Part shown: piece by piece, positions 721 to 13,093 of the stretch
How positions within the stretch are numbered: the first letter of the stretch is position 1
How the letters are laid out: each line of letters begins with the position of its first letter
Virus record (IMG/VR): IMGVR_UViG_3300039159_000820
Coordinates: 1-23,497 of that record
Origin: a virus
Strand: one strand, 5' to 3'
DNA: 23,497 nucleotides
The notes under the pieces: model-generated
The model's input: the letters and a program-made list of their open reading frames with translations, nothing else
Told to the model about the DNA's origin: nothing
Database searches by the model: none
Position numbers and translations under genes: made by a program

Positions 721-1119
721 TTACCCCAGCAACAACCGAACCCCGGGCAATCTCGCAGCTTTCCGGTCGAATGTGACAAGCTCGGCAGCACCTGCGCGCC
801 GGGCAGCGGCAGCGATCATCAGATCGGCAAAGCCAAAGCCGTCATTGCGGTAAAGATCCAGCGCGGACCCGACATCATCACCCGCCTCAATCCGCACCTC
901 GGTCGAGGACAACAACCCATCCAGCGCCCCAGCAATCTTCGCGCGCCCGTAGCCATAGGCGCGCTCCAGAACCCAGACGAGTTCGATCAACACCTCGCGG
1001 CTGACAAAGCCAGGCTCAGTATCCGTCAACTGGTCGAAGATATCGCCCGCGATCCGGGCCTGATCGGCGTCGTCCTGCACAAGGAAACGCACCAGCACAT
1101 TGGTATCAACGGCGATCAC
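721..1119 (-). CDS. vapC: VapC-type PIN-domain toxin ribonuclease (module 1)
   Basis: This 132-residue protein has the size and layout of a VapC toxin. The four acidic residues of the PIN-domain active site are visible: Asp5 in MIAVDTNVLV, Glu46 in LIELVW, Asp99 in FGFADLMIA and Asp118 in TFDRKAA. VapC proteins are Mg-dependent endoribonucleases that cut tRNA or rRNA and stop growth unless bound by the cognate antitoxin. The gene overlaps the upstream vapB by four bases (ATGA), so translation is probably coupled. It lies antisense to the phage late operon and its stop codon abuts the portal stop with no gap, so any transcript reading past it is antisense to portal mRNA. All catalytic residues are present, so it looks functional. 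The RNA target cannot be read from sequence. Confidence 0.93.
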   Translation of the reverse strand: MIAVDTNVLVRFLVQDDADQARIAGDIFDQLTDTEPGFVSREVLIELVWVLERAYGYGRAKIAGALDGLLSSTEVRIEAGDDVGSALDLYRNDGFGFADLMIAAAARRAGAAELVTFDRKAARLPGVRLLLG

Positions 1120-1367
1120 GGATCAGGCATCATGCTTGCGGCGGCACCGCTGGCGATGGCCTCGTCCATGGCCTCCAGCGTCACGGGGGCCTGACCCGGG
1201 CGCGCCAGCACCCCGCGCAGTTCCTTGACCGAGCGGGCCTTCAGGATGCGGACCTCGCCGTCGAGGATGACATAACGCACCCGGTCCCCGCTGGTCAGGC
1301 CAAGTGCTGCCCGTACATCGCGGGGCAAGGTCGTCTGGCCTTTGATCGTCACGGTTGATTCCTGCAT
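1116..1367 (-). CDS. vapB: AbrB/SpoVT-fold antitoxin (VapB/PrlF-like, module 1)
   Basis: This 83-residue protein begins with a swapped-hairpin AbrB DNA-binding domain: STVTIKGQTTLPRDVR followed by ALGLTSGDRVRY (about residues 4-32). The C-terminal half is variable and would wrap the toxin, as in other VapB proteins. It sits directly upstream of vapC-1 with an ATGA overlap, the usual antitoxin-first order. The GQTT-P motif also resembles PrlF, so the annotation could be either VapB or PrlF family; the PIN-domain partner favours VapB. Antitoxins of this type bind their own promoter and repress the operon, more tightly when in complex with toxin. The putative control region lies at 1368-1408. 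Confidence 0.88.
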   Translation of the reverse strand: MQESTVTIKGQTTLPRDVRAALGLTSGDRVRYVILDGEVRILKARSVKELRGVLARPGQAPVTLEAMDEAIASGAAASMMPDP

Positions 1368-1408
1368 GACCTTATTCCTTACAAATTACTGCATCACATT
1401 ACCTTATG
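1368..1408 (-). promoter_or_regulatory. Putative promoter/operator of the VapBC-1 module
   Basis: This AT-richer stretch lies just upstream of vapB-1. On the plus strand it holds TGCATCACATTACCTTAT (about 1390-1407), close to one half of the perfect palindrome upstream of prlF (6268-6289); the shared core is CATTACCT, with TGCA just before it. A possible minus-strand -35 TTGCAT and -10 TAATGT with a 17-bp spacer can be drawn across the region, but both match the consensus only partly. It also contains the ATG at 1406 that would lengthen the following protease gene by 14 residues. The regulatory role is inferred. Confidence 0.4.
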
Positions 1409-1447
1409 GAGATTGGAAATGCAAAACCAAACAAAGGACCAATCCTG

Positions 1448-2860
1448 ATGCTGCATGCCCGCATTGCCGCGCGCGCCTTCAATACGCCGCTGCTGATTGA
1501 GCCCTCCAAGGCCATGGCGTTTCTCTCCGGCCTTGGGCCGCGCATCCTTGGGCGCGGGGTCGAGATTGGTGACGAAAACGGCGCCTTGGAAAGCAACGTC
1601 GTCCCGCCCGCGCGCGCCAGCATCTTGGCCGGTGGCATGCTGAACGATTACCGCCAGCATGGTGAGGCGCCCTACCCGGTGGTGGATGGCATCGCCGTGA
1701 TCGAAATCTCTGGCGTGCTGATCCATCGTGGGGGCTGGATCGGACAATCCTCGGGCCAGACCAGCTACGAGGGGATCGCTGCCCAGATTGAGGCGGCGGC
1801 CAGTGACCCTGCTGTGCGCGGCCTCGCATTGGAAATTGACAGTTTTGGTGGCGAAGTTGCAGGTGTTTTTGACCTTGCAGATCGCATTCGTGCACTTCGT
1901 ACCATCAAACCCGTCTGGGCTTTTGTGGCCGAACACGCTTTCTCGGCGGGCTATGCACTGGCAAGTCAGGCAACCCGTATCCTGCTGCCGCGCACCGGTG
2001 CTCTGGGCAGTATCGGGGTCGTGGTGATGCACGCCGATCTCAGCGCGCAGCTTGATCAAGACGGGATGCGGGTAACACTGATCCATTCAGGCAGCCACAA
2101 GGTTGACGGTAACCCTTACGAGCCACTGCCTGCAGAGGTCCGGAACGACATCCAGCGCGAGATCGATGTGCTGCGGTTTCTCTTCGCCGAGACCGTCGCG
2201 GCTGGTCGTGCCGGGCGGCTGAGCCAGGACGCCGCAATGGCGACCCAAGCGGCAACCTATCGTGGGGCCGATGCCATCGCTGCGGGCCTCGCAGATGAAG
2301 TGACCGACCTTGCGCGCGGCTTTGCGGGCTTCCGGCAACTGATGACCCGCACCCCAACGCTATCACCCGAGCGCGCTCAGCGCGCATCCCTTTCCCACCC
2401 CAAACAGGAGGCACGCATGGCCACCGAACATGATCCCGGCGACAGCCCACAGGACGTCCTCGATCAGGCGACAGAACCGCAGCAGGGCAATACAGACACG
2501 GCTGATGATCCGCCTGCCGCCCCTGCAACGCCCCAAACGGCAACTGCACTGACGGCTCCCGCCGTAACGCAACCGGGCAATCTGGCGGAATTGTCAGCGC
2601 AGTTTCGTGAAGCCGCGGCAGAGATCGCCGAGATCGCGGCGCAGGCAGGCAGGCTCGGTGTGACAATCGACGCAGCGAAAGCGCTGCGCGAGGGCACATC
2701 CCCCGAGGCCCTGCGTCGCCTCGTGATTGGGCGCGCAAGTGCTGCCGCAGACGCGCGCGACATTGTCGCCGCTCCTCCCTCGCCCGTTCGGCCGCAGGCG
2801 AAGGAAAGCCCGATCGTCGCGGCTGCAAAACGCGCTGCCGCAGCAGGCGGCCGGGCCTGA
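1448..2860 (+). CDS. S49-family prohead protease (lambda gpC-like) with C-terminal scaffold region
   Basis: This 470-residue protein has an SppA/S49 ClpP-fold peptidase domain (about residues 80-300) and a low-complexity, helical C-terminal region (about 324-470). The presumed nucleophile is Ser166 in AFSAGYALAS and the general base Lys218 in GSHKVDGNPYEP. In lambda the gpC protease cleaves the portal and degrades the scaffold during prohead maturation. I chose the start at 1448 because AAGGA lies nine bases upstream and homologues typically begin MLHARIA; the in-frame ATG at 1406 has no ribosome-binding site and lies inside the antisense vapB control region. The preceding structural gene is the portal, separated from it by the antisense VapBC-1 module. 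A second in-frame start at 2417 very probably yields a separate scaffold protein. Confidence 0.9.
   Translation: MLHARIAARAFNTPLLIEPSKAMAFLSGLGPRILGRGVEIGDENGALESNVVPPARASILAGGMLNDYRQHGEAPYPVVDGIAVIEISGVLIHRGGWIGQSSGQTSYEGIAAQIEAAASDPAVRGLALEIDSFGGEVAGVFDLADRIRALRTIKPVWAFVAEHAFSAGYALASQATRILLPRTGALGSIGVVVMHADLSAQLDQDGMRVTLIHSGSHKVDGNPYEPLPAEVRNDIQREIDVLRFLFAETVAAGRAGRLSQDAAMATQAATYRGADAIAAGLADEVTDLARGFAGFRQLMTRTPTLSPERAQRASLSHPKQEARMATEHDPGDSPQDVLDQATEPQQGNTDTADDPPAAPATPQTATALTAPAVTQPGNLAELSAQFREAAAEIAEIAAQAGRLGVTIDAAKALREGTSPEALRRLVIGRASAAADARDIVAAPPSPVRPQAKESPIVAAAKRAAAAGGRA
2417..2860 (+). CDS. Nested in-frame capsid scaffold protein (lambda Nu3-like)
   Basis: Inside the protease gene and in the same frame, ATG at 2417 is preceded by a near-perfect Shine-Dalgarno ACAGGAGG (2405-2412) four bases upstream. 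Translation from there gives a 147-residue protein that lacks the protease domain. It starts MATEHDPGD, then has an acidic, Gln/Thr/Pro/Ala-rich linker and a helix-rich Ala/Glu segment (roughly residues 58-105) ending in a basic tail (AAAKRAAAAGGRA). This is the arrangement of lambda genes C and Nu3, where the scaffold is made from an internal start in the protease gene. The internal ribosome-binding site is seen; the scaffold role comes from the lambda precedent and gene position. Confidence 0.72.
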   Translation: MATEHDPGDSPQDVLDQATEPQQGNTDTADDPPAAPATPQTATALTAPAVTQPGNLAELSAQFREAAAEIAEIAAQAGRLGVTIDAAKALREGTSPEALRRLVIGRASAAADARDIVAAPPSPVRPQAKESPIVAAAKRAAAAGGRA

Positions 2861-2909
2861 CGCCACCGCCAGTCTCAGACTAAAACCCGACACCTCATTG
2901 CCTGACTGT

Positions 2910-2944
2910 CCCCCGCCGCACCGCCCCGGCGGGGGATGCCTTTT
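2910..2944 (+). terminator. GC-rich hairpin followed by TTTT, between protease/scaffold and decoration genes
   Basis: A perfect 9-bp stem pairs CCCCCGCCG (2910-2918) with CGGCGGGGG (2927-2935) around an 8-base loop, followed by ATGCC and TTTT (2941-2944). The U-run is short and displaced by five bases, so it may be a partial terminator, an attenuator or an mRNA-stabilising 3' end. It falls exactly between the low-copy protease/scaffold gene and the high-copy decoration and capsid genes. Confidence 0.5.
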
Positions 2945-2968
2945 GCCCCCTCACACAGGAACGCCACC

Positions 2969-3349
2969 ATGACCGTCCTCAACAAACCCCTGACCATGGG
3001 CGATGTCCTCAAATACGAGGTCAACCCGAACTACACCCGCGAGACCATCACGCTCTTGGCCGGCATGCCCTATCCGGTCGGCTCGGTTTTGGGCCGCATC
3101 ACCGCCAGCGGTAAATACAAGCTGGCCACCAGCGGCGGCAGCGACGGCGCGCAGACCGCTAGTGCCGTGCTGCTCTACGCCGTCGACGCCACGCTGGCCG
3201 ATGCGACCGGCATCGTCATGGCGCGGGGCCCTGCCATCGTCTCTCGGGCGGCACTCATCTACGACGCTACCGTCGATGACGGTGCCAAGATCATCACCAA
3301 AATCGGCCAACTGGCTGCAGCCGGGATTATCGCACGCGACACTGCCTGA
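2969..3349 (+). CDS. Phage head decoration protein (lambda gpD-like)
   Basis: This 126-residue protein belongs to the lambda gpD head-decoration family, whose trimers clamp the expanded capsid lattice from outside. Recognisable blocks are the LTMGDVLKYEVN start, ETITLLAGMPYPVGSVLG, the YKLATSGGSDGAQTA segment and AVLLYAVDATLADATG. The length is close to lambda gpD (110 residues). ATG at 2969 is chosen because ACAGGA precedes it at good spacing; an in-frame ATG at 2936 lies inside the hairpin region and has no ribosome-binding site. It directly precedes the major capsid gene, as in lambda (D then E). Confidence 0.88.
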   Translation: MTVLNKPLTMGDVLKYEVNPNYTRETITLLAGMPYPVGSVLGRITASGKYKLATSGGSDGAQTASAVLLYAVDATLADATGIVMARGPAIVSRAALIYDATVDDGAKIITKIGQLAAAGIIARDTA

Positions 3350-3432
3350 CCTTCGAAGCCTGATCCTCCCAGACGCGCGCCGGATTGCCTGGCGCAGCCA
3401 ACCTGTACCCCCCTCTTTCCTTGGAGTTCCCC

Positions 3433-4455: not shown

Positions 4456-4465
4456 GGGGTTACCC

Positions 4466-4777
4466 ATGTCCGTCTTTATCGCTGCCATCGACAACGTCTT
4501 TTGCGATCCCAACATCGCCCGAGATGCGGTCTATATTGCCGACGGTGGAACACCCGTCCTCGTCCGCGTGGTCATGCGCCGCGCGGACGACATTACTGCG
4601 TTCGGCGACACGCGTCTGTGGTCGGAAACCACCCGCGTCGATCTTCGCGTGGCCGAGGTCCCCAACCCGCGACCTGGCGAACGGATCGAGATCAGTTCTG
4701 AGGCATTCCTCATTCAGGGTGAGCCCGTCCGCGACCGCGAGCGGCTTGTCTGGACCTTGGATTTGCGCCCCGCATGA
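4466..4777 (+). CDS. Head-tail joining protein (lambda gpFII-like)
   Basis: This 103-residue protein sits between the major capsid gene and a gpZ-like gene, the place of lambda FII. The C-terminal half is predicted beta-rich (TRVDLRVAEV, GERIEISSEAFLIQGEPV, RLVWTLDLRP), in line with the small beta-barrel that completes the capsid neck and binds the tail. The N-terminal half contains an IAADGGT-like segment and VLVRVVMRRADD. The start at 4466 follows a GAGGGG sequence. Its stop overlaps the next start by four bases (ATGA at 4774). The assignment is based on size, composition and synteny, and is reasonably firm. Confidence 0.75.
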   Translation: MSVFIAAIDNVFCDPNIARDAVYIADGGTPVLVRVVMRRADDITAFGDTRLWSETTRVDLRVAEVPNPRPGERIEISSEAFLIQGEPVRDRERLVWTLDLRPA

Positions 4778-5403
4778 AACTGAAGCTCGCCATTGATCCT
4801 GACATCGTCGCCATGATGGCGGCCGAGGTTGCAGCCGGAGAACGCGCAGTCACGGCCGCCATGCGCGAGGCCGGAACGGGCCTGAAATCCGCTTGGCGCG
4901 CACAGATCACCGGCGCCGGGCTGGGCACCCGGCTTGGCAATTCTATTCGGCTCGCCAGCTTCCCAAAGTCCGGCGACAGTCTGAGCGCGGCGGCCTTGGT
5001 CTGGTCCAACGCACCAGTGATCGTCGGCGCCCATGACACCGGCCCGCTGATCCGCTCGAAAAATGGGTTCTGGCTGGCGATCCCCACCCCGGCCGCTGGC
5101 AAAAGCAGCAAAGGCGGCCGCATCACGCCGGGCGAGTGGGAACGCCGCACCGGCCTACGTCTGCGGTTCATTTATCGCCGCCGCGGGCCAAGTCTACTGG
5201 TCGCTGAGGGGCGGCTGAACAGCAAGGGTCGGGCGGTTGCTTCCAGGTCCAAGACGGGGCGCGGTGTCGCGACCGTGCCGATATTTCTGTTGGTGCCACA
5301 GGTCAAGCTGCGCAAACGGCTGGATCTGGCGCGGGATGCGGAGCAGGCGGTGAGCGGCGTGCCGGGGCTGATCGTGTCGAACTGGGTGGAGGGGGAACTG
5401 TGA
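4774..5403 (+). CDS. DUF6441-type head-tail/minor tail protein, gpZ-like
   Basis: This 209-residue protein is recognisable as the family found at this position in Rhodobacterales prophages (DUF6441). An N-terminal helical part (AEVAAGERAVTAAMREAG) is followed by LKSAWRAQI, a WSNAPVIVGAHDTG segment and a basic middle (FIYRRRGPSLLVAEGR), ending in KLRKRLDLARDAEQ. Its position after the joining protein and before the tail terminator matches lambda gpZ, a tail protein needed for DNA passage; that functional link is by synteny. It overlaps the preceding gene by four bases. Its TGA stop forms one arm of an inverted repeat whose other arm contains the stop of the antisense yhaV gene. Confidence 0.65.
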   Translation: MKLKLAIDPDIVAMMAAEVAAGERAVTAAMREAGTGLKSAWRAQITGAGLGTRLGNSIRLASFPKSGDSLSAAALVWSNAPVIVGAHDTGPLIRSKNGFWLAIPTPAAGKSSKGGRITPGEWERRTGLRLRFIYRRRGPSLLVAEGRLNSKGRAVASRSKTGRGVATVPIFLLVPQVKLRKRLDLARDAEQAVSGVPGLIVSNWVEGEL

Positions 5404-5419
5404 CGCAGCTCTTGCGTCA
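5401..5419. repeat. Inverted repeat carrying two convergent stop codons (possible bidirectional terminator)
   Basis: TGACGCA (5401-5407) and TGCGTCA (5413-5419) form a perfect 7-bp stem with loop GCTCT. The left arm begins with the TGA stop of the gpZ-like gene on the plus strand, and the right arm ends with the TGA stop of yhaV on the minus strand. TTT follows on the plus side at 5420-5422. It is short for an efficient terminator but is symmetric and could act in both directions. Confidence 0.5.
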
Positions 5420-5917
5420 TTTCTGCTCCAGCAGATCGACAAACTCGCCGCCGGTTTTCTGAACGCTGGCAAGCAGCGCTTTCCAGTCTCCAGGCGGATT
5501 TCCATCCTCGAGCATACCTTTGAACACCCGATAGGCATCGGTGCGGCTGTCATAGGCGCGAAGCGTCGTATCGTCGTTCACCCATGCAAGGATGATCACG
5601 CGGCTTTCAACGTGAAAACGGAAGAACAGCCGGTACTGCTGAAAGAATTTCGCCCGAAACCAGTGCCGGTGCTCGTCACCCAGCGTGTTGCCCTGCCGGA
5701 ACTTCGGATCGGTTGGGTCAGACGGGATCTCTTCAAAGATCAGCTTGGTGATCGCCGCGAGCCGCTTCGTGGCGTTCTTGCTACGATAACCAGCGGGGTT
5801 GGCTGCTTTGAGGGCCGTGACCTTTTCGACCAGCGCCGCGACTTGATCGAGAAAAAGAGGATGCGCGAACAGGGTCCATCCGTTCACGACCAACGGCACG
5901 ACGGAATCGCCCGTCAT
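5417..5917 (-). CDS. yhaV: YhaV-family toxin ribonuclease (module 2)
   Basis: This 166-residue protein matches the E. coli YhaV toxin along its whole length (about 154 residues there): VNGWTLFAHPLFLDQ near the N-terminus, then ATKRLAAI, FRQGNTLGDEHRHW, YRLFFRFH, RVIILAWVNDDTTLR, and DAYRVFKGMLEDGNPPGDW. YhaV is a RelE-superfamily ribonuclease active on mRNA and rRNA, neutralised by PrlF. The basic and aromatic residues of the core are present, so the toxin looks intact. It overlaps the upstream prlF by four bases (ATGA), so expression is coupled. It is antisense to the late operon, and its 3' end is 13 bases from the end of the gpZ-like gene. Confidence 0.93.
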   Translation of the reverse strand: MTGDSVVPLVVNGWTLFAHPLFLDQVAALVEKVTALKAANPAGYRSKNATKRLAAITKLIFEEIPSDPTDPKFRQGNTLGDEHRHWFRAKFFQQYRLFFRFHVESRVIILAWVNDDTTLRAYDSRTDAYRVFKGMLEDGNPPGDWKALLASVQKTGGEFVDLLEQK

Positions 5918-6240
5918 TCATCTTCGGGCGAAAGAGCCGCATTGAGGTCAAGCTCGACACCCTCGGCCAGTTCAAACAGCTTGGCACGAAGGGACGTGTC
6001 GAGCGCACGAATGTGGCCGGGATTTTGGCTGATGTCCTGCGCCAGAAACGACAGAAACGCGCCGATGGCAGGGTCTTTCCCGACCTCCGAAACGCGACTG
6101 AGAAGAACATCGCCTTCCGGCAGAATGGTGTAGGAGATGCGGTCACGCTTCTTGAGGCCGAGCGCCTTGCGCACGACTCCAGGCATCGTAGTCTGATACT
6201 TGTCGGTCAGCGTGGACTCGACCTTGAGTTCGGCAAGCAT
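5914..6240 (-). CDS. prlF: PrlF-family AbrB-type antitoxin (module 2)
   Basis: This 108-residue protein has an N-terminal AbrB-type DNA-binding domain (STLTDKYQTTMPGVVRKALG, about residues 9-28) followed by RDRISYTILPEGDVLLSR. The helical C-terminal part (FLSFLAQDISQNPGHIRALD) corresponds to the region of E. coli PrlF that contacts YhaV, and the protein ends in an acidic EDE. Start ATG at 6240 has AAGGAGA on the minus strand about six bases upstream. It would neutralise YhaV and autorepress the operon; a 22-bp palindrome just upstream (6268-6289) is the obvious operator. The toxin match makes this pair the most certain of the four modules. Confidence 0.92.
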   Translation of the reverse strand: MLAELKVESTLTDKYQTTMPGVVRKALGLKKRDRISYTILPEGDVLLSRVSEVGKDPAIGAFLSFLAQDISQNPGHIRALDTSLRAKLFELAEGVELDLNAALSPEDE

Positions 6241-6267
6241 GTGATTCTCCTTTACGTCGCCAAACCA

Positions 6268-6289
6268 AGGTAATGCAATCGCATTACCT
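6268..6289. promoter_or_regulatory. Perfect palindrome upstream of prlF: probable operator
   Basis: AGGTAATGC (6268-6276) and GCATTACCT (6281-6289) form a perfect 9-bp inverted repeat around AATC. It lies 28 bp upstream of the prlF start. On the minus strand a candidate -35 TTGATT and -10 TACCTT, 17 bp apart, enclose it, so a bound antitoxin would block the promoter. AbrB-type antitoxins bind such repeats. The half CATTACCT recurs upstream of vapB-1. Confidence 0.7.
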
Positions 6290-6354
6290 AATCAAGAACG
6301 CAACGACAGAAACTGCGAGATAGCGTTCCTAGCCGCTCTAAATTTGGTGCCCCC

Positions 6355-6777
6355 ATGCCCACCACCCGCGAAACCATCCTCACTGCACTGTACTCGCGGT
6401 TGCAGCCGCTCGCTGCCCTTGTTTTGCGCGACGAGGTGCTGCCCGAGCGGATCCCGGCGGCCGGGCTGATCATCTTGCGCGACGGCCAGCCGGGTGAACC
6501 GGAAGTGACGCTCTCGCCGCTGCGCTATCATTACCAGCATCGCGCAGAGATCGAGGTCGTCATCCAGGCCGGAACCGGCCGGGCCAGCGCCTTCGACAGC
6601 CTGATCGCCGCCATCGGCACAACGCTGGAAGCCGACCGCACCCTTGGCGGCCTCTGCGACTGGGTTGAACCCGAAGCCCCGACTTCGGTCGACTTGCCCA
6701 TCGAGGGTGCGGCGGCACTCAAGGCAGCGGTGATCATCGTTGTGTTGTACTACACCTCTACCGGCCCCTTGGCCTGA
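6355..6777 (+). CDS. Tail terminator / minor tail protein (lambda gpU-like)
   Basis: This 140-residue protein lies between the gpZ-like protein and the tail tube, the place of lambda gpU, and has the usual gpU size (131 in lambda). It begins with a helix (TRETILTALYSRLQPL), followed by alternating strands including AGLIILRDGQPGEP, YQHRAEIEVVIQA and AAALKAAVIIVVLYYTS, the alpha/beta layout of gpU-like terminators. The protein would cap the tail tube and bind the head connector. A clear Shine-Dalgarno is lacking (TTTGGTG only), unlike its neighbours; the 114 bp before it belong to the prlF-yhaV module, so its native ribosome-binding site may have been altered by that insertion. Confidence 0.75.
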   Translation: MPTTRETILTALYSRLQPLAALVLRDEVLPERIPAAGLIILRDGQPGEPEVTLSPLRYHYQHRAEIEVVIQAGTGRASAFDSLIAAIGTTLEADRTLGGLCDWVEPEAPTSVDLPIEGAAALKAAVIIVVLYYTSTGPLA

Positions 6778-6801
6778 CACCCACAACAACAGGAGACCCC
6801 C

Positions 6802-7743
6802 ATGGCACGTGCGCAAGGCGCGCGGGCGGAGATGGCGCTTGCGTATGAGACGGTTTACGGCACCCCGCCGGTCAGCGGTTTCACGAAGATGCCCTTCGCC
6901 AGCACCTCGCTGGGATCGGAACAGCCACTTTTGAACAGCGAATTGCTCGGTTATGGCCGCGATCCTCTCGCGCCGATCAAGGACGCGGTGACGGCCGATG
7001 GCGATGTCATGGTGCCGATTGATGCCGAGGCCTTTGGGTTCTGGCTCAAGGCAGCCTTCGGCGATCCCACGACCACAGGTGCTGCGGCACCTTATACTCA
7101 TGAGTTTCAGTCTGGATCGTGGGTCCTACCCAGCATGTCGATCGAGACCGCCATGCCCGAGGTGCCGCGCTTTGCGATGTATTCCGGCTGCGTGCTGGAT
7201 CAGCTGTCTTGGCAGGTGCAACGCTCGGGCCTGCTGACCGCGACTGCCCGGCTGGTGGCGCAAGGCGAGACCATCGCTACAACAACTGGCGCGGGCACGC
7301 CTGCTGAACTGGCGCTGAAGCGGTTTGGCCATTTCAACGGCGCGATCAGTCGCAATGGTTCTGCGCTGGGCAATGTGGTCTCGGCAGAAATCACCTATGC
7401 CAACAACCTCGACCGGATCGAGACCATCCGCAGCGACGGCAAGATCGACGGGGCCGACCCGTCCATCGCAGCACTTACCGGCCGGATCGAGGTGCGCTTT
7501 GCCGACAGCACGCTGGTGACGCAGGCAATCAACGGCGATCCCTGCGAAATCAGCTTCGCCTATGTCCTGCCCTCAGGCGAAAGCTTCACCTTCACCGTTC
7601 ACGCCGTCTACCTGCCGCGCCCCCGGATCGAGATTTCCGGACCGCAGGGCGTGCAGGCCACGTTTGACTGGCAGGCCGCCAAGGCCGCCAGCCCCGCACG
7701 GATGTGCACCGCAATCCTGACCAATGATGTGGAGACCTATTGA
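6802..7743 (+). CDS. Major tail tube protein
   Basis: This 313-residue protein is a phage tail tube subunit, which stacks as hexameric rings to form the DNA conduit. It is beta-rich and contains conserved blocks: AYETVYGTPPVSGF, EQPLLNSELLGYGRDP, DGDVMVPIDAEAFGFWLKAAFGDP (conserved block about residues 67-90), YTHEFQSG and VSAEITYANNLDRIETIRSDGKI, which are typical of tail tube proteins in alphaproteobacterial siphoviruses. The start at 6802 follows AGGAG. The end overlaps the next start by one base (TGATG at 7741-7745). It lies just before the frameshifting chaperone and tape measure genes, as in lambda (V, G/GT, H). Confidence 0.88.
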   Translation: MARAQGARAEMALAYETVYGTPPVSGFTKMPFASTSLGSEQPLLNSELLGYGRDPLAPIKDAVTADGDVMVPIDAEAFGFWLKAAFGDPTTTGAAAPYTHEFQSGSWVLPSMSIETAMPEVPRFAMYSGCVLDQLSWQVQRSGLLTATARLVAQGETIATTTGAGTPAELALKRFGHFNGAISRNGSALGNVVSAEITYANNLDRIETIRSDGKIDGADPSIAALTGRIEVRFADSTLVTQAINGDPCEISFAYVLPSGESFTFTVHAVYLPRPRIEISGPQGVQATFDWQAAKAASPARMCTAILTNDVETY

Positions 7744-8180
7744 TGATCCGTCTGAACCTGACCGCTTCCCCCGAATGGCTGAATTTGGCCCCCGGCCTGC
7801 GTTTGCTGGTAGCGCCGCTGACCACCGCTTTGATGGTCTCGGCCCGCGCCGATCCAGCCATCGAGGCCACAACCGAAGGCGTCACCCAAGAGGAACTGGC
7901 GCTGGCCATGGCAAAAGCCGTCGCCCGTCGCGCCGTGCTGGATTGGGAGGGCGTCGGTGATGACAACGGCACAGTTGTGCACGTTTCGCCGGAAGGCATT
8001 GATGCCCTGCTGGAAATCTGGCCGGTCTTCGAGGCATTTCAGACCCAATACGTCGCACGTGGATTGATCCTGGACACGGAAAAAAACGTCTCCGCGCCCT
8101 CGCCGACTGGTCCTTCGGCGGTGGCGACCGGTACTGCGCGTCCTGCGCAGGCCCCTGCCCGGACTGCCCTGCAAGGCTGA
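7743..8180 (+). CDS. Tail assembly chaperone, zero-frame product (lambda gpG-like)
   Basis: This 145-residue protein lies between the tail tube and tape measure genes, the invariant position of tail-assembly chaperones that coat the tape measure before tube polymerisation. It is helical with a LDWEGVGDDNG loop and an EALLEIWPVFEAFQTQYVA-like helix (about residues 86-104), ending in an Ala/Pro/Thr-rich tail after residue 115. The ATG at 7743 overlaps the tail tube stop by one base. Codons 114-115 (AAA AAC), preceded by an A, form the heptamer A_AAA_AAC at 8081-8087, where a fraction of ribosomes should slip back one base and make a 226-residue gpGT-like fusion that continues to 8422. Confidence 0.8.
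   Translation: MIRLNLTASPEWLNLAPGLRLLVAPLTTALMVSARADPAIEATTEGVTQEELALAMAKAVARRAVLDWEGVGDDNGTVVHVSPEGIDALLEIWPVFEAFQTQYVARGLILDTEKNVSAPSPTGPSAVATGTARPAQAPARTALQG
8081..8120 (+). other. Programmed -1 ribosomal frameshift site with downstream hairpin
   Basis: AAAAAAC at 8081-8087 is in the exact phase for tandem -1 slippage (zero frame GAA AAA AAC). The -1 frame entered here stays open to TGA at 8420-8422. Thirteen bases downstream, CGCCGA (8101-8106) pairs perfectly with TCGGCG (8115-8120) around an 8-base loop, a candidate stimulatory stem. The frameshift between G and GT-type products is conserved in siphoviruses. Confidence 0.85.
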
Positions 8181-8422
8181 ACCGGCCGCAGACGCAGGAC
8201 GGCTGGCAAGTCTGGGATCTGGTCGGCCGCCTTGGTGGCCAGCTGCGCGTGATCCCCGGCGCAGTGCTCGGCTGGGACATGGGGGCCGCCTTGGCTCTCG
8301 CTAATGCGTTGGGCATCGACACTCTCATCGCCGCCGAACTGCTGCCCGAGATCGAGGCCGTGATGGTGCGCAAGCTGAACGAACAGATCGCAGATGGCAG
8401 CACCTCTGCCGTCAGTCCTTGA
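8087..8422 (+). CDS. Second-frame (GT-like) extension of the tail assembly chaperone
   Basis: The -1 frame from 8087 gives 111 residues: RLRALADWSFGGGDRYC, a tetracysteine motif CxxC-x3-CxxC (CASCAGPCPDC), then LNRPQTQDGWQVWDLVGRLG, an AALALANALGIDTLIAAELL helix and a C-terminal AVMVRKLNEQIADG. There is no usable ATG, GTG or TTG at its beginning, and only CTG stands where the zero-frame gene stops, so fusion by frameshift is the natural way to express it. The whole fusion (7743-8422) would be 226 residues, and the T-like part would recruit the tape measure. The last 11 bases overlap the 3' end of the antisense vapC-2 gene. Confidence 0.78.
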   Translation, partial: RLRALADWSFGGGDRYCASCAGPCPDCPARLNRPQTQDGWQVWDLVGRLGGQLRVIPGAVLGWDMGAALALANALGIDTLIAAELLPEIEAVMVRKLNEQIADGSTSAVSP

Positions 8423-8792
8423 ACTTCTCGATCAGGGTGACCCCCGGCAAACCTTCGAAATGCGCGTCGCAGGTGAGCAGCGTCGCCCCGCGCGCCCGCG
8501 CCGTGGCGAACATGATGGCATCCGCCGTTGCCAGTTTGTGGTCCCGCCAAGCATCTGCGGCGGCAAGGGCAATCTCGGTGTCGAGTGGCACGACCTGACA
8601 GACCTGTGTGAAGGCAATCACCTGATCCGCTTTATCCTCACCAACTTCGCGGGTCAGCCATTTTGCCAGTTCCAGCTGGACCATGGTCGGCACCAGCCAA
8701 TCTGCTTGTTCGGGCAGATGTTCAGCCACGCGCTCTCCGGTGGCCGATCCAATCAGCCACTCGATCCACGCCGACGTGTCGACAAGAACCAT
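8412..8792 (-). CDS. vapC: VapC-type PIN-domain toxin ribonuclease (module 3)
   Basis: This 126-residue PIN-domain protein has the four expected acidic residues: Asp5 in MVLVDTSAWIEW, Glu41 in VQLELAKWL, Asp91 in KLATADAIMFATA and Asp109 in LLTCDAHFEGLPGV. It is a different lineage from the module 1 toxin: the VDTSAWIEW start and TADAIM motif contrast with VDTNVLVRF and FADLMI there. It is translationally coupled to the upstream antitoxin (stop and start share one base). It lies antisense to the late operon, and its 3' end overlaps the last 11 bases of the chaperone frameshift product. It looks intact; its RNA target is unknown. Confidence 0.93.
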   Translation of the reverse strand: MVLVDTSAWIEWLIGSATGERVAEHLPEQADWLVPTMVQLELAKWLTREVGEDKADQVIAFTQVCQVVPLDTEIALAAADAWRDHKLATADAIMFATARARGATLLTCDAHFEGLPGVTLIEKFKD

Positions 8793-9007
8793 TAGAACCG
8801 GTCCACGCGATCACGGTATTCCGTAGCTGATGCTCCGCGTGCGATGCCCTTCAGCGCGTCCCGCTTCGGGACCGGCACCAGCAAAACCCCTGTGCCCTTT
8901 GGGATAAAGGCAAAGGTCAGCCCGGCCTCCCACGCTTGGGCCGTCCGGATCGCCTTGGGGATCGATATCTGAAACTTCGAGGACAGGGTTGCGGTTTCGG
9001 ACATCAT
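8792..9007 (-). CDS. vapB: AbrB-type antitoxin (VapB-like, module 3)
   Basis: This antitoxin of about 71 residues contains the AbrB-fold signature TATLSSKFQISIPKAIR, then FAFIPKGTGVLLVPVPKRD and a C-terminal toxin-binding tail ending YRDRVDRF. Three consecutive ATG codons (9010, 9007, 9004) precede SETATL. GGAGG at 9014-9018 on the minus strand is 3, 6 and 9 bases from them respectively, so 9007 or 9004 is preferred; a much longer in-frame reading reaching 9349 would be antisense to the tape measure gene and is rejected. The 64 bp between it and the tape measure start must hold the module's promoter; no convincing palindrome is visible there. Confidence 0.88.
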   Translation of the reverse strand: MMSETATLSSKFQISIPKAIRTAQAWEAGLTFAFIPKGTGVLLVPVPKRDALKGIARGASATEYRDRVDRF

Positions 9008-9074
9008 CATACGCCTCCATGATCGATACACATAACGTAAGACGCCAAAGCGGCAAAAGCAAGGAACTAGGGAA

Positions 9075-11516
9075 ATGGCCGAGAAACGCGTATCCGTCCG
9101 CCTCGTCGCGGAAGGCGGCCGCCAGGTGCGCGCCGAGCTGGAAGGTGTGGGTGATGCCGGGGCGCGGGGCTTCGGGCGGCTGTCGCGCGAGATGGACATG
9201 GCGAATGCGCGCGTTGCCGCTTTTGCCCGCCGCGCCACGCTTGCCGCAGCGGCTGCCACTGCGGCGCTGGCGGCGGCGGGGGTCGCGATGATCCGCTCCG
9301 GCCTGCAGACCGTCGATGCGCAGGCCAAGATGGCGCAATCTCTGGGCACGACCGTCGCCAGCCTTCAGGTACTGGAGCGGGCGGGCGATCTGGCGGGCGT
9401 GTCGATGGGTCAGGTCGAGCAAGCCACCGTACAACTGACGCGGCGGCTGAGCCAGGCGGCCGCCGGAACCGGACCAGCGGTCGATGCCTTGGACCGCCTG
9501 CACCTCTCGGCCGAGGCGTTGCAACGCCTGCCGCTGGATGCGCGCATCGCGGCCATTCAGGAGGCGCTGGGGCAATTTGTCCCCGAAGCCGAACGCGCGG
9601 CGGTGGCCTCGCAGCTCTTCGGCGACCGCGCGGCCTTGGTATTCACCCGGATCGACACGGCGACACTGCGCCAGGCGACCGAGGACGTTCTTGCCTTCGG
9701 GGTTGTCGTTTCCGAAGCTGACGCAGACCAGATCGAACGCACCAATGACGCGATTTCACGGTTGGGCCTGATCTGGCGCGGGCTGTCAAACCAGCTTGCT
9801 GTCGCCGCTGCGCCCTCCTTGGAAGCGGTCGCGAATGCCATGGCCGCTATTGCCAGCCGCACCGGGCCACTGGGCATCGCGATCAAGGCGCTCTTTGATA
9901 ACCTCGGACGGCTGACGACTTATGCCGCGACCTTCGCAGGTATCATGGCCGGGCGCTGGGTGGCTGGCATGGCGGTGGCTGCGCTCTCGGTGCGCGGGTT
10001 GGCCACCGCTCTGGTCTTCTTGCGTGGTGCGCTGATCCGCACCGGGATCGGGGCGCTGATCGTCGGCGCTGGCGAGCTGGTCTATCAGTTCACCAGGCTG
10101 GTCGCCGGAGCGGGCGGCGTGGGAGAGGCGTTCCGCCTAATGGGCGATCTCGCCAAAGAGGTCTGGTCGCGCATGGGGCTGGCGCTGGATGGGGCGTTGG
10201 CGCGCATGGCGGCAGGCTGGGAGGGGCAGAAGGCGGCGGGGCTTTCGGCGCTGGAAGGGACTGTCGCAGGCGTGGTGAACTTCGGCGACAGGACGGCGGC
10301 GATTTTCCAGGGGACCTATGACGCTGCCGTGGCGATCTGGGGCAGTCTGCCCGGTGCCATTGGTGACTTTGCGTTTCAGGCGGCGAACGGGCTGATTTCC
10401 GGCGTCGAGGCGATGCTGAATGGCGTGGTCACCCGCATCAACAGTTTCATCAACGGATTGAACGCCGCACTGGCCCTGCTGCCGGAATGGGCGGCCGGCG
10501 AGGGTGGCGTGCAGATCGGCACGCTGGATCCTGTGGGCCTGGCCCGGATCGGCAACCCGTTTGAAGGCGCGGCCGAAGCTGCCGGTGCCGCCGCAGCCGA
10601 TGCTTTCTCGGCGGCACTGTCGCGCACCTATCTGGAGCCGCCCGACCTCGGCCTTGGGGCCATGGCCGAGGATGCCCGCGCCCGGGCCGATGGATACCGC
10701 GAAGCGGCTGGCATGCTCGCCGATGCCGCAGGTCGGCCACTCGCCAGCTGGCAGGCGCTGCGCGATGCCGTGTCGGGCAGCGGGGCGGATGCCGAGGCCG
10801 CGCTGGCCGGTGCCACTGCTGCCGCCAGCGCGCTGGGCGATGAACTGGACGACACCGGCGGGGCCGCAGGTCGGGCCGGGGCAGCTGGTCGCGCGGCAGG
10901 GGCAGCGGCGGCCGAGGGCGCAGATACCGCCCTGACCGGCTGGGCGGCCGTCACAGCCGCACTCGCCGATTATGCCGCCAAGGCGCGCGAGATCGGCAGC
11001 GATATCGGACAGGCGCTAGTCGGCGCTTTTCAGAGCGCCGAGAACGCCGTGGCCACGTTCGTCAAGACCGGCAAGCTCGACTTTCGTGATCTGGTCACCT
11101 CGATGATCGCCGATCTGGCCAAGCTGGCGGCGCGGCGTTTCATCCTGGGCCCGATTGCCAATGCACTCTCTGGCGCGCTGGGCGGTGCGGGCGGACTGTT
11201 TGCCAACATCCTGCACGCCGGTGGCATGGTCGGATCACCGGGCCCGGGCCGCATGGTCCCCGCCATGGTCTTCGCTAATGCCCCGCGCATGCATTCCGGT
11301 GGCTGGGCAGGACTGCGCCCGGACGAGGTTCCGGCAATCCTGCAGCGCGGGGAACGGGTGCTGTCACGGCGAGAAGCGGCGGGCTATGGCCAATCCAGCG
11401 CGCCCACCGTCAACGTCACGATCATGTCGCGCGACGCCGAGAGCTTCCGACAATCGCGCACGCAGGTCGCGGCCGATATTGCCCGGGCGGTCTCGCTGGG
11501 TCGGAGGGGTATGTGA
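9075..11516 (+). CDS. Tail tape measure protein
   Basis: This 813-residue protein sets tail length and is ejected ahead of the DNA. The N-terminal 100 residues are alanine-rich helix (RVSVRLVAEGGRQVRAELEG, then an Ala-rich stretch near 50-75). The middle, about 270-340, contains hydrophobic segments (YAATFAGIMAGRWVAGMAVAA-like, RTGIGALIVGAGELVY) that could span the host membrane. Residues about 640-720 resemble the lambda tape-measure C-terminal domain (DIGQALVGAFQSAENAVATF, then GKLDFRDLVTSMIADLAKL). The end contains GGxVGSPGPGR-like Gly-rich turns and EVPAILQRGERVLSRREA, which are frequent in tape measures. The start has AAGGAA eight bases upstream. At 813 residues it implies a tail of roughly 120 nm by the usual ~1.5 Å-per-residue rule. 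Confidence 0.9.
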   Translation: MAEKRVSVRLVAEGGRQVRAELEGVGDAGARGFGRLSREMDMANARVAAFARRATLAAAAATAALAAAGVAMIRSGLQTVDAQAKMAQSLGTTVASLQVLERAGDLAGVSMGQVEQATVQLTRRLSQAAAGTGPAVDALDRLHLSAEALQRLPLDARIAAIQEALGQFVPEAERAAVASQLFGDRAALVFTRIDTATLRQATEDVLAFGVVVSEADADQIERTNDAISRLGLIWRGLSNQLAVAAAPSLEAVANAMAAIASRTGPLGIAIKALFDNLGRLTTYAATFAGIMAGRWVAGMAVAALSVRGLATALVFLRGALIRTGIGALIVGAGELVYQFTRLVAGAGGVGEAFRLMGDLAKEVWSRMGLALDGALARMAAGWEGQKAAGLSALEGTVAGVVNFGDRTAAIFQGTYDAAVAIWGSLPGAIGDFAFQAANGLISGVEAMLNGVVTRINSFINGLNAALALLPEWAAGEGGVQIGTLDPVGLARIGNPFEGAAEAAGAAAADAFSAALSRTYLEPPDLGLGAMAEDARARADGYREAAGMLADAAGRPLASWQALRDAVSGSGADAEAALAGATAAASALGDELDDTGGAAGRAGAAGRAAGAAAAEGADTALTGWAAVTAALADYAAKAREIGSDIGQALVGAFQSAENAVATFVKTGKLDFRDLVTSMIADLAKLAARRFILGPIANALSGALGGAGGLFANILHAGGMVGSPGPGRMVPAMVFANAPRMHSGGWAGLRPDEVPAILQRGERVLSRREAAGYGQSSAPTVNVTIMSRDAESFRQSRTQVAADIARAVSLGRRGM

Positions 11517-11577
11517 GTGCGACCCCGCAAGTGGGAACCGGTCGCGGGGACCAGAGCACGAACAACGGAGAGTATTG

Positions 11578-12204
11578 ATGGCGTTTCATGAGGTCCGCTT
11601 TCCCGACAACATCAGCCGCGGGGCGCGGGGCGGGCCGGAACGGCGCACGCAAGTGGTCGAACTGGCAAGCGGCGATGAAGAGCGCAACGCCAGCTGGGCA
11701 AACAGCCGCCGTCGCTATGATGTCGCCTATGGCATCCGGCGCGCCGATGATCTGGCGGCGGTGGTTGCCTTCTTCGAGGCCCGCAACGGCCGCCTGCACG
11801 GGTTTCGCACCAAGGATTGGGCCGACTACAAATCCTGCCTGCCGTCGCAGGCGGTCGCCCCCACCGATCAACCCATCGGCACCGGCAATGGGGCCATAAC
11901 TACCTTTGCATTGCTGAAACGCTACACGTCTGGTGCCCAAAGCTGGACCCGCGCCATCGCCAAGCCGGTCGCAGGCAGCGTCCGCGTGGCCCTGAACGGG
12001 GTCGAGCAGATGACCGGCTGGAGCGTCGATACCACCACCGGCAGCGTCACCTTCACCGCCGCGCCCGGCGCAGGAATCGCGATCACCGCAGGCTTCGAAT
12101 TCGATGTCCCCGTGCGTTTCGACACCGACACGCTCGACGTCACCCTCGATATCGAGCGGCTGGGCTCGATCACCTCAATCCCTCTGCTGGAGATCCGCAG
12201 ATGA
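11578..12204 (+). CDS. DUF2460 distal tail protein (GTA gp12-like)
   Basis: This 208-residue protein has the DUF2460 signature: FHEVRFPDNISRGARGGPER at the start, VVELASGDEERNASWANSRR, YDVAYGIRRADDL, FFEARNGRLHGFRTKDWADY, and DVTLDIERLGSITSIPLLEIR at the end. In Rhodobacter capsulatus GTA the homologue (gp12) is the distal tail protein that closes the tube and connects to the hub. The start at 11578 follows CGGAGAG; the long upstream in-frame reading overlaps the tape measure and is not real. It is followed four bases later by the stop codon of the antisense GNAT toxin, which interrupts the usual gp12-gp13 junction. Confidence 0.92.
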   Translation: MAFHEVRFPDNISRGARGGPERRTQVVELASGDEERNASWANSRRRYDVAYGIRRADDLAAVVAFFEARNGRLHGFRTKDWADYKSCLPSQAVAPTDQPIGTGNGAITTFALLKRYTSGAQSWTRAIAKPVAGSVRVALNGVEQMTGWSVDTTTGSVTFTAAPGAGIAITAGFEFDVPVRFDTDTLDVTLDIERLGSITSIPLLEIRR

Positions 12205-12208
12205 AACG

Positions 12209-12733
12209 CTATGTCTCGCCCATCATCGCCTTCAGATCCTTGATACGAGCAAACAGTGTCATCGGCTCTGCTGTCGTCTCAGTAAACCCGACATCGAGAT
12301 AGAATGCCTTGGCGCGGTCATTCAGAGCGTGAACAAGAATGGCCGCGATGCCAACCTCATGTGCAGCGGCGGTGATCCGCAGCATGGCATCGCGCAGCAG
12401 CGCCCGACCAAGACCGTTGCCCTGCTCGGACGCATCAATTGCCAGACGGCCCAGCACGATGACCGGGATCGGATCGGGCATATTCTGCTTGAGCTTGCGC
12501 GGCATCAGATCGTGGCTCACCGATCCGGCTGCCAGCGCGTAGAATCCGACAACCTTTGCCCCCCGGCAGAGCACAAAGGTCCGTGATGCGCCGGATGCCT
12601 GATTGGCCTGTGCCTTGCGCTTCAACCACGCATCAAGCGTCGGCGCGCCAGAAGCGAAGGCATCAACCTGATGGGTATCGTTCAGGGGTTCGGGTGCTGT
12701 CAGAGGCCCCTCACCGGGCGTCACTTGTCCCAT
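12209..12733 (-). CDS. tacT: GNAT-family acetyltransferase toxin (TacT-like, module 4)
   Basis: This 174-residue GNAT protein has the size of TacT/AtaT toxins, which acetylate the amino group of charged tRNA and stop translation. The acetyl-CoA site is visible as LGRLAIDASEQGNGLGRALL (residues 94-113, with QGNGLG at 104-109), and a conserved tyrosine in AKAFYLDVGF (Tyr145) matches the catalytic position of TacT. The N-terminus has the characteristic FASGAPTLDAWLKRKAQANQ block of this toxin subfamily. It overlaps the upstream DUF1778 antitoxin gene by 13 bases. It lies antisense to the late operon, four bases from the DUF2460 stop. The DUF1778 partner is what marks it as a toxin and not a metabolic acetyltransferase. 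Confidence 0.9.
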   Translation of the reverse strand: MGQVTPGEGPLTAPEPLNDTHQVDAFASGAPTLDAWLKRKAQANQASGASRTFVLCRGAKVVGFYALAAGSVSHDLMPRKLKQNMPDPIPVIVLGRLAIDASEQGNGLGRALLRDAMLRITAAAHEVGIAAILVHALNDRAKAFYLDVGFTETTAEPMTLFARIKDLKAMMGET

Positions 12734-13014
12734 GGGGCGGGTGTGGCCAGCAACTTGCGCAAGCGTTCGTTCGGTGCGGGTGGCGCGTCCAGCTGCGCCA
12801 TGAAGGCTCCAAACTGATCGGCATCCAGTCGAAACGCCGTGCGATCCAACAATGCATCCTCGGCGGCCTGCCGACTGGCCTCCATCATGAACTCCGAGCG
12901 GTTTTTGCCAAGTGCCGCCGCAGCACGGTCGATCAGATCGCGGTCCCGAGGGGTGACGCGAAGATTGATCAGCGACCGACGCTGGGTATCCTCATTGGGT
13001 GTCATGGCGACCAT
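12721..13014 (-). CDS. tacA: DUF1778 ribbon-helix-helix antitoxin (TacA-like, module 4)
   Basis: This 97-residue protein has a ribbon-helix-helix DNA-binding N-terminus (RRSLINLRVTPRDRDLIDRA) and the DUF1778 hallmark NRSEFMMEASRQAAEDALLD. The C-terminal toxin-neutralising tail (LDADQFGAFMAQLDAPPAPN, then ERLRKLLATPAPWDK) is typical of TacA proteins. I place the start at 13014 because AGGAG lies eight bases upstream on the minus strand; an in-frame ATG at 13047 has no ribosome-binding site and overlaps the operator. It would repress its own promoter through the palindrome at 13046-13068 and block TacT. Antitoxin and toxin overlap by 13 bases. Confidence 0.9.
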   Translation of the reverse strand: MVAMTPNEDTQRRSLINLRVTPRDRDLIDRAAAALGKNRSEFMMEASRQAAEDALLDRTAFRLDADQFGAFMAQLDAPPAPNERLRKLLATPAPWDK

Positions 13015-13045
13015 TTCGGATTCTCCTGCGATGAATTCACCCCAC

Positions 13046-13068
13046 ATGTAAAGACAACAGCTTTACAT
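13046..13068. promoter_or_regulatory. Perfect inverted repeat upstream of tacAT: probable operator in its promoter
   Basis: ATGTAAAG (13046-13053) and CTTTACAT (13061-13068) form a perfect 8-bp inverted repeat with a 7-base spacer. On the minus strand a candidate -35 TTGAAA (13073-13068) and -10 TACATG (13050-13045) lie 17 bp apart and enclose it. A third half-site, GTAAAG, occurs at about 13087 just before the hub gene start. Ribbon-helix-helix antitoxins bind such repeats. Confidence 0.65.
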
Positions 13069-13093
13069 TTCAACTGCGGAACGGACGTAAAGA

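Follow-up and report, generated by a model that had tools for sequence, protein, structure and literature searches.

The window analyzed here, the 23,497-nt virus record IMGVR_UViG_3300039159_000820 at its full length, carries on its plus strand the late (head and tail) operon of a siphophage, as identified by PHROGs, and nested in this operon, on the opposite strand, four predicted type II toxin-antitoxin (TA) modules: VapBC-1, PrlF-YhaV, VapBC-2, and TacAT. The layout and strand of these modules, the binding of each TA family to one gene junction, the conservation of the coding sequences, operator-like motifs next to the antitoxin genes, and turnover of the filled junctions can all be followed in related loci and are reported below. 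We consider it probable that the modules are antisense morons in a noncontiguous late operon, which would be active in the lysogen and dampened by late transcription.

Four Antisense Modules in the Window

The plus strand genes follow the order portal (3' part), S49 protease, D, E, g6, Z, U, V, G/GT, tape measure H, and g12 to g15, the latter resembling genes of gene transfer agents (GTA). Some of these names are taken from gene order alone. To judge from their packing, the plus strand genes are probably read as a single transcript. By gene order and strand, the TA genes are nested, in antisense, among genes otherwise read together, which is the arrangement of a noncontiguous operon.

VapBC-1 lies between portal and S49 and consists of the PIN-domain toxin gene vapC-1 (721..1119, minus strand; Pfam PIN, E-value 7.6e-16), whose stop abuts the portal stop codon, and of an antitoxin gene of AbrB fold and PrlF/MazE type (1116..1367, minus strand; Pfam PrlF_antitoxin 1.9e-8, MazE_antitoxin 4e-6). 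The invariant residues of vapC-1 include D5, E42, D99, and D118. PrlF-YhaV, located between Z and U, comprises the toxin gene yhaV (5417..5917, minus strand; Toxin_YhaV 1.7e-59) and the antitoxin gene prlF (5914..6240, minus strand; PrlF_antitoxin 7.5e-34). VapBC-2 separates GT and H with the PIN toxin gene vapC-2 (8412..8792, minus strand; PIN 1.3e-19), whose 3' end shares 11 nt with GT, and an AbrB/MazE-like antitoxin gene (8792..9007, minus strand), the match of which to MazE_antitoxin is weak and below the curated cut-off (0.0018). TacAT, finally, is found between g12 and g13 and is composed of tacT, encoding a GNAT acetyltransferase (12209..12733, minus strand; Acetyltransf_7 1e-8), and the RHH antitoxin gene tacA (12721..13047, minus strand; TacA1 7.8e-25), the start of which is uncertain, with 13014 as a possible alternative. 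Each module begins with its antitoxin gene, which shares 1–13 nt with the toxin gene, and all four toxins match known toxin families in Pfam (PIN twice, Toxin_YhaV, and GNAT). Both VapBC modules, PrlF-YhaV, and TacAT are therefore classified as type II TA modules with predicted toxicity and neutralization.

A preliminary description of this DNA had reported four unrelated TA modules, all opposite to the operon and none breaking a structural gene. The coordinates and Pfam matches bear out the modules, their positions, and their strand. To call the families unrelated is too strong: Pfam identifies both VapC-1 and VapC-2 as PIN proteins, even if BLAST gives no alignment between the two, and the antitoxin of VapBC-1 is 50% identical to the PrlF of the window over 46 amino acids. 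That no structural gene is broken holds as well, with the qualification that the stop codon of GT (8420-8422) falls within the 3' end of vapC-2 read backwards. In relatives filled by HigBA, the GT stop is read from within higA. The C-terminus of GT hence depends on the cassette. Toxin and preceding phage gene converge closely in all cases, with their stops 0 nt (portal), 13 nt (Z), and 4 nt (g12) apart and the 11-nt overlap at GT (range -11 to +13).

Occupancy of the Junctions in Related Loci

Capsid, g13, and V searches revealed 318 related loci, 80 of which originate from bacterial genome contigs, mostly Rhodobacteraceae by title. As some of these contigs are very long (e.g., 4.1 Mb), the family is prophage-borne. 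The viral scans contributed the best 80 of at least 594–598 confirmed matches each, the genome scan the best 80 of 267. Some contigs are represented more than once among the 318 loci, which, together with the window, were summarized to 219 clusters by shared 300-mers. A junction was regarded as filled if it held an insert of at least 130 bases, and all counts refer to distinct junctions. No record with a capsid at least 60% identical to that of the family was found in the phage collection searched.

The inserts are unevenly distributed along the operon. In the head half, 15 of 112 portal–S49 junctions are filled, 4 of 122 at S49–D (spacers of 132–235 bases in the first locus set), 6 of 169 at E–g6, and 8 of 196 at g6–Z. 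The middle of the operon shows 170 of 190 filled junctions at Z–U, 32 of 211 at U–V, 13 of 203 at V–G, and 41 of 183 at GT–H. Towards the tail end, g12–g13 is filled in 41 of 130 cases, compared with 1 of 140 at H–g12, 2 of 123 at g13–g14, 6 of 110 at g14–g15, and 1 of 53 at g15–fibre. Among the distinct junctions, an insert was never seen at D–E (0/153) or at G–GT (0/190). At empty sites the genes are tight or overlapping, with modal overlaps of 1, 7, 8, and 4 nt at the four TA junctions of the window, and close relatives with contiguous flanking genes lack the cassettes, as is characteristic of morons. In the filled junctions examined, the stop of the preceding gene and the start of the following gene are both retained.

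Three close capsid relatives (L084, L144, and L160) occur in metagenome-assembled genomes labelled Burkholderiaceae or Gammaproteobacteria, for which binning contamination is a likely cause. Two further loci with V proteins 61% identical and a similar order of structural genes belong to records named 'Synechococcus phage Sc-Yong805-1' (L322, OP858991) and 'Nostoc phage Nsp-JY21' (L323, PP438413), and the cyanobacterial hosts stated for them may be wrong.

Cargo Families and Their Slots

The cargo was identified by Pfam on representatives and by a tblastn census of distinct DNA, in which a match had to cover at least half of the query; shorter matches were dropped, such that short remnants are uncounted. 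Choosing the longest open reading frame gave shadow frames and was replaced by coding score and conservation.

In this census, each TA family of the window occurs at a single junction and in antisense only. Relatives of VapBC-1 were identified exclusively at portal–S49 (15 distinct vapC-1 and 15 distinct antitoxin relatives), those of VapBC-2 exclusively at GT–H (29 distinct VapC copies plus one at a truncated GT junction, and 32 VapB copies), TacAT of the type in the window exclusively at g12–g13 (7 distinct copies), and PrlF-YhaV exclusively at Z–U (5 distinct copies). The Z–U junction additionally holds, in antisense, a second TacAT type found nowhere else (6 distinct), RHH/ParE modules (12 ParE copies plus one truncated), two HipA copies, and a single HigA. 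At GT–H, HigBA (6 copies) and RelE/Xre (3–4 copies) are likewise antisense, and RelE/Xre is found once more upstream of portal, again in antisense. The insert of one relative at GT–H (L156, 16461-17519) shows VapBC-2 stacked beside an Xre-type (helix-turn-helix) gene, apparently the remnant of another cassette.

The slots are not restricted to TA modules. The U–V junction carries antisense genes for bactofilin, a staphylococcal nuclease (SNase), a BLUF light sensor, a B12-binding protein, and a protein with a weak GIY-YIG match; examples of such cargo at this junction are L116:15469-15861, L021:14591-15046, L121:12967-13392, and L100:13528-14355. The bactofilin is a surprising find in a late operon of a phage. 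At E–g6, next to the capsid gene, an endonuclease of the REase-ARP family is encoded in antisense (e.g., L092:6747-7592), with a cluster of five dereplicated members at this site. Sense cargo is represented by DUF1186 at V–G and, at Z–U or elsewhere, by NERD, FRG, and an Abi_2-like protein, besides an antisense HEPN protein, a nitroreductase, and insertion sequence (IS) elements. Z–U (5404-6354 in the window; 319 sequences) appears as a general cargo hotspot with highly varied and mostly unclassified cargo on both strands. Finally, a recurrent sense block at g12–g13 (20 dereplicated inserts; e.g., L190:4600-5487) includes a phage lysozyme, a late phage function, and shares the slot in which other phages have the antisense TacAT.

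Orientation of the Cargo

Among dereplicated inserts, 12 of 12 at portal–S49, 34 of 34 at GT–H, 5 of 5 at E–g6, and, at U–V, all 26 classified inserts (of 29), i.e., those falling into a conserved cluster, are antisense. Dereplicated inserts are not independent events, and therefore families per junction were tallied by hand as well. Conserved cargo families per junction divide into 18 antisense and 5 sense (p=0.011), TA families into 11 antisense and 2 sense (p=0.022).

The 18-to-5 tally omits inserts without a gene in a cluster of at least three, namely 106 of 151 at Z–U, 6 of 37 at g12–g13, 3 of 29 at U–V, 5 of 11 at V–G, 6 of 7 at g6–Z, 4 of 5 at g14–g15, and all four at g13–g14, H–g12, and g15–fibre. 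An IS110 cluster (c19), a cluster of 47 amino acids (c27), and a vapC shadow frame (c30) were also left out, while YhaV was tallied although its cluster (c52) contains only two dereplicated inserts, as against the five distinct copies of the tblastn census. Because only 45 of the 151 inserts at Z–U are classified and V–G holds sense cargo, the antisense rule holds strongly at certain slots and loosely at the rest.

Searches Starting from the Toxins

A complementary view comes from toxin searches in 394 genomes of one family group, a few of which were also reached by the capsid search. VapC-2 gave 25 matches, 20 of which adjoin GT and/or H, all 20 in antisense. Five of the six VapC-1 matches with at least 62% identity adjoin portal in antisense, and for none of the 10 weaker matches was a phage neighbor in reach. 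For TacT, 6 of 7 matches with at least 60% identity lie between g12 and g13 in antisense; the remaining one and seven weaker ones are located elsewhere. Taken together, the slot-adjacent matches of these three toxins number 31 and are antisense without exception.

The non-random arrangement suspected in the preliminary description is thereby upheld: the census of related loci ties every family of the window to a single junction and strand, and for three of the four the genome searches give the same picture. Related prophages did not show, in the census of junction, family, and strand, the random position and orientation which that description would have taken as a sign of chance accumulation, and chance accumulation with random orientation is ruled out by this slot- and strand-specificity.

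Selection and Turnover

The TA genes are under purifying selection, with median dN/dS ratios of 0.07–0.16 over 15 TA gene sets (0.13 for vapC-1 and 0.12 for vapC-2) and a single copy with an internal stop in the match (tacA of L288).

Occupancy of the slots hardly reflects the phylogeny of the neighboring genes. On the tree of the neighboring V gene, GT–H occupancy requires 35 changes, compared with a mean of 36.3 (range 32–40) for shuffled labels. On neighboring-gene trees, the corresponding figures are 12 versus 14.3 (12–15) for portal–S49, 19 versus 22.8 (18–24) for U–V, 13 versus 14.2 (11–15) for Z–U, and 7 versus 6.9 (5–7) for TacAT. Since the counts for portal–S49 and U–V sit at the low end of the shuffles, some inheritance is indicated at these two junctions. 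L002, L004, L083, and the window have capsids 99–100% identical and different sets of cassettes. We read this independence from the neighboring-gene tree as a sign that recombination between the flanking genes probably exchanges the cargo.

A mobile element with shared ends is not a suitable explanation, as a repeat search in the window gave no long repeats at the cassette edges and the boundaries differ between families. Short duplications do occur (GGACCA..CCTG at portal–S49, ATGAAA at g12–g13), and are equally expected from keeping the stop and start signals of overlapping genes. Apparent deletions at portal–S49 in two relatives with short inserts (L015 and L100) are read as misplaced portal stops, since no VapC-1 copy with an internal stop was found.

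Spacers and Operator-Like Motifs

Between the antitoxin start and the next phage gene, 46 to 114 bases remain in the window, which hold family-specific operator-like motifs. The spacer of VapBC-1 (1368..1447), a putative promoter/operator combined with the ribosome-binding region of S49, contains TCCTTAC in 14 of 14 distinct spacers and a second copy of GGACCA..CCTG, of which empty portal–S49 sites carry one. The corresponding spacer of VapBC-2 (9008..9074), likewise a putative promoter/operator, includes the ribosome-binding site CAAGGA of H and shows AACGTAAGA and ATCGAT, each in 26 of 30 distinct spacers. Both VapB spacers have conserved motifs and no consistent palindrome, and their role as operators is putative. 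Inverted repeats characterize the other two: AGGTAATGC-AATC-GCATTACCT in the operator-like spacer of prlF (6241..6354), with arms of 8–10 bp in 4 of 5 distinct spacers, and ATGTAAAG-N7-CTTTACAT in that of tacA (13048..13093), with arms of 7–9 bp in 7 of 7. By a simple pattern, all 30 VapB-2 spacers, 13 of 14 VapB-1 spacers, none of 5 PrlF spacers, and 1 of 7 TacA spacers have a Shine-Dalgarno-like motif for the following gene.

Proposed Function of the Antisense Slots

We propose that the late operon of this Rhodobacterales prophage family offers cargo slots at certain gene junctions, four of which, in the window, would hold autonomous TA cassettes of type II in antisense orientation. In the lysogen, with late transcription off, each cassette would be transcribed from its own autoregulated promoter and may serve prophage and host in addiction, in defence against phages, or in both, and the antisense placement would stop the cassette promoters from driving late genes. 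Once the late operon is on, transcription would cross the cassettes backwards and turn them down, so that virion production would be unharmed. The cassettes would be passed on mainly where the conserved flanking genes of two phages undergo homologous recombination, and for this reason each slot would keep TA families of its own.

This proposal draws on the restriction of the families in the window to one junction and one strand, with which the toxin-first searches agree for three of the four, and is consistent with the antisense bias, the sense strand of the lysozyme block in the g12–g13 slot where TacAT is antisense, the purifying selection, the operator-like repeats, the retention of stops and starts, and the tree-independent occupancy. 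For the mechanism, there are precedents in other phages, as far as the available portions of the two reports go (PMC11364771, PMC11087260).

Several observations weigh against it. Of the VapC-2 copies in the 394 genomes, 5 of 25 are away from recognised phage genes. The sixth VapC-1 match (L362; partial, 71%, at a contig end) does not lie by portal and has a g15-like gene of equal orientation at a distance of approximately 1.2 kb. YhaV had a phage neighbor at none of 30 loci (of 40 places listed), and PrlF-YhaV is therefore not tied to the phage. Broken copies were found for tacA (L288, internal stop), VapC-2 (L347), and YhaV (L379), the last of which is the closest genomic YhaV copy (85%) and has an internal stop. 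At Z–U, ParDE (4–5 copies) and a DUF433/PIN_10 module (L065) are encoded in sense, which means that antisense orientation is not obligatory there, and sense non-TA cargo is found at V–G and Z–U (DUF1186, NERD, and c33). Upstream of the cassettes, a scan of the window with a sigma-70-like promoter consensus, which may fit alphaproteobacteria poorly, gave a match in 0 of 4 cases.

Two of these points deserve a separate remark. The VapC-1 relative in L362 is possibly a sense copy elsewhere in a related phage. Decay as the general state of the modules was rejected for the matches counted (at least half of the query in the tblastn census), since broken copies such as those in L288, L347, and L379 are rare, though not absent.

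Alternative Explanations

The most serious alternative, which we regard as possible and rather unlikely, invokes constraint only: selfish TA cassettes would land anywhere, and those in sense orientation would be eliminated for their polar effects on the operon or for switching on late genes in a lysogen, all without benefit to the phage. Slots at tolerated junctions and their fast turnover would follow from such a process, the non-TA cargo (bactofilin, SNase, BLUF, and REase-ARP) is antisense just as the TA modules are, and the YhaV family is common outside phages. However, cassettes landing anywhere would not account for close relatives of three of the TA families residing mainly at their own slot, and the purifying selection on the TA genes also speaks against this alternative, although addiction alone could yield such selection.

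An extension of the proposed antisense control, which we hold to be very improbable, would turn the slots into a tripwire. Late transcription, including that caused in trans by the late activator of a related superinfecting phage, would silence all four antitoxin promoters together. If this were true, late transcription itself would be the trigger: the labile antitoxins would be lost and several toxins freed at once, such that the infection would be aborted or the host shut-off timed after induction of the prophage itself.

Very improbable in our view is an action of the cassettes through antisense RNA, in which their mRNAs would extend into portal, Z, GT, and g12 and suppress the leaky transcription of late genes in the lysogen, while the TA proteins would only maintain the cassettes. 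The window scan found no terminator-like site between the convergent toxin and phage-gene stops, which are separated by only -11 to +13 nt, and in the Salmonella prophage BTP1 an antisense RNA within the late genes mediates superinfection exclusion, according to the available part of that report (PMC7067206). Yet all TA slots are empty in 37 of 78 loci, and the phages concerned presumably form lysogens nonetheless.

Least probable of all is that the four modules form one distributed system acting together, as the preliminary description had suggested. The window is the only one among 78 loci spanning portal to GT–H in which four TA slots are filled, and TA modules at Z–U and GT–H are positively associated (11/22 versus 24/105, odds ratio 3.4, p=0.017 dereplicated, p=0.001 before), as are those at portal–S49 and g12–g13 (2/4 versus 0/25, p=0.015 dereplicated, p=0.012 before). 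The remaining four dereplicated slot pairs, however, gave p=0.058, 0.21, 0.30, and 0.58 (six tests, uncorrected), and phylogenetically independent pairs for Z–U and GT–H a median p of 0.125. In the 78 loci, a count that is not dereplicated and in which some loci stop short of g12–g13, no TA slot is filled in 37, one in 28, two in 9, three in 3, and four in 1. Moreover, the same slot is filled by different TA families in different phages. TA modules at different slots are thus associated only weakly, which fits exchangeable slots rather than one four-part system. The off-tree occupancy, the different sets beside 99–100% identical capsids, and the non-TA cargo in the slots lead to the same conclusion.

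Relation to Known Systems

The comparisons in this section refer to the available portions of the cited reports. In phage phi80, TaiEcA/AtiEcA resembles the window in that a gene on the opposite strand interrupts the late operon and is thought to be on in lysogeny; TaiEcA lies opposite to and within the Q-dependent late operon, and its level fell on expression of Q (PMC11364771). The phi80 system differs in being one immunity gene with a counter-gene, tested experimentally, whereas for the window we infer several TA cassettes in separate slots. In Tha/Ith of the S. aureus phage 80alpha, a prophage operon likewise encloses an antisense gene that has a promoter of its own, which couples immunity to the life cycle, but the operon is that of cI and the enclosed gene is the inhibitor (PMC11087260).

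In related bacteria, the Paracoccus prophages Pben1 and Pkon1 have HicA- and RelE/ParE-type TA pairs encoded opposite to the surrounding genes. One of two TA modules tested from Paracoccus prophages stabilized a plasmid, and an arsB gene opposite to structural genes is mentioned as well (PMC6536676). Single antisense TA modules in Paracoccus prophages are hence already known. In contrast to the window, there is one module per prophage, and a survey of slots or orientation was not found in the available part of the report (PMC6536676). TA genes among head and tail genes, variably present as in our loci, are also described for the Campylobacter prophage CJIE4 (MazF, CopG/RelE; PMC3995785), and hicAB is variably present before the tape measure gene in lambda-like phages of Mannheimia (PMC4553209); these cases comprise only one or two modules, and their strand is not stated in the portions available. 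P2-like phages and P4 satellites share with the window fixed loci with exchangeable defence cargo, but have a hotspot adjacent to the cos site instead of many slots inside a structural operon (PMC9122126).

With respect to gene order, the window agrees with isolated RcC phages of Rhodobacter capsulatus such as RcBaka and RcOceanus (V 60–63% and g13 approximately 64% identical in this group). The annotations of these two differ in having no cargo between terminase and g15. In 11 R. capsulatus RcC phages among the matches listed, the distance from the start of V to that of g13 is 4497–4551. The RcC lifestyle is given as 'not determined' in the available text (PMC8601537). In titles and abstract openings outside subscription journals and preprints, no published description of several antisense TA slots in one late operon was found, and within this scope the multi-slot layout with slot-bound TA families is apparently new.

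Structural Genes of the Window

All structural genes are encoded on the plus strand. Slot 1 is preceded by the 3' part of the portal gene (1..720, PHROG portal; stop codon 718-720) and followed by the S49 head maturation protease (1448..2860, PHROG 53). Slot 2 lies between a Z-like gene (4774..5403; phrog_6367, of function unknown in PHROGs and named by gene order) and the tail terminator U (6355..6777, PHROG 4204). The tail assembly chaperones G/GT (7743..8422, PHROG 313 and 11212) precede slot 3. At 8081-8087 they contain the heptamer A AAA AAC, a canonical site of -1 frameshifting. Of the 216 sequences in which both genes were mapped, 209 have this heptamer in the frame of G. Slot 3 is followed by the tape measure gene H (9075..11516, PHROG 8462). 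The GTA-like tail gene preceding slot 4 (11578..12204, PHROG 2913) is presumably g12, a name which we assign by gene order, and g13 (13094..13978, PHROG 778) follows the slot. On the minus strand, a glycosyltransferase gene (22370-23497) runs to the right end of the record and may represent host flank or a conversion gene.

Implications for the Phage Family

Reports of backward TA or immunity genes in prophages have been scattered. The family described here, which is present in many Rhodobacterales genomes, would combine them into a testable layout, in which a late operon contains antisense cargo slots at fixed places and several of these slots have TA families of their own. Filled and empty slots in phages with nearly identical capsids constitute a natural experiment, which may serve to study the role of TA modules in prophages and their control by late transcription.

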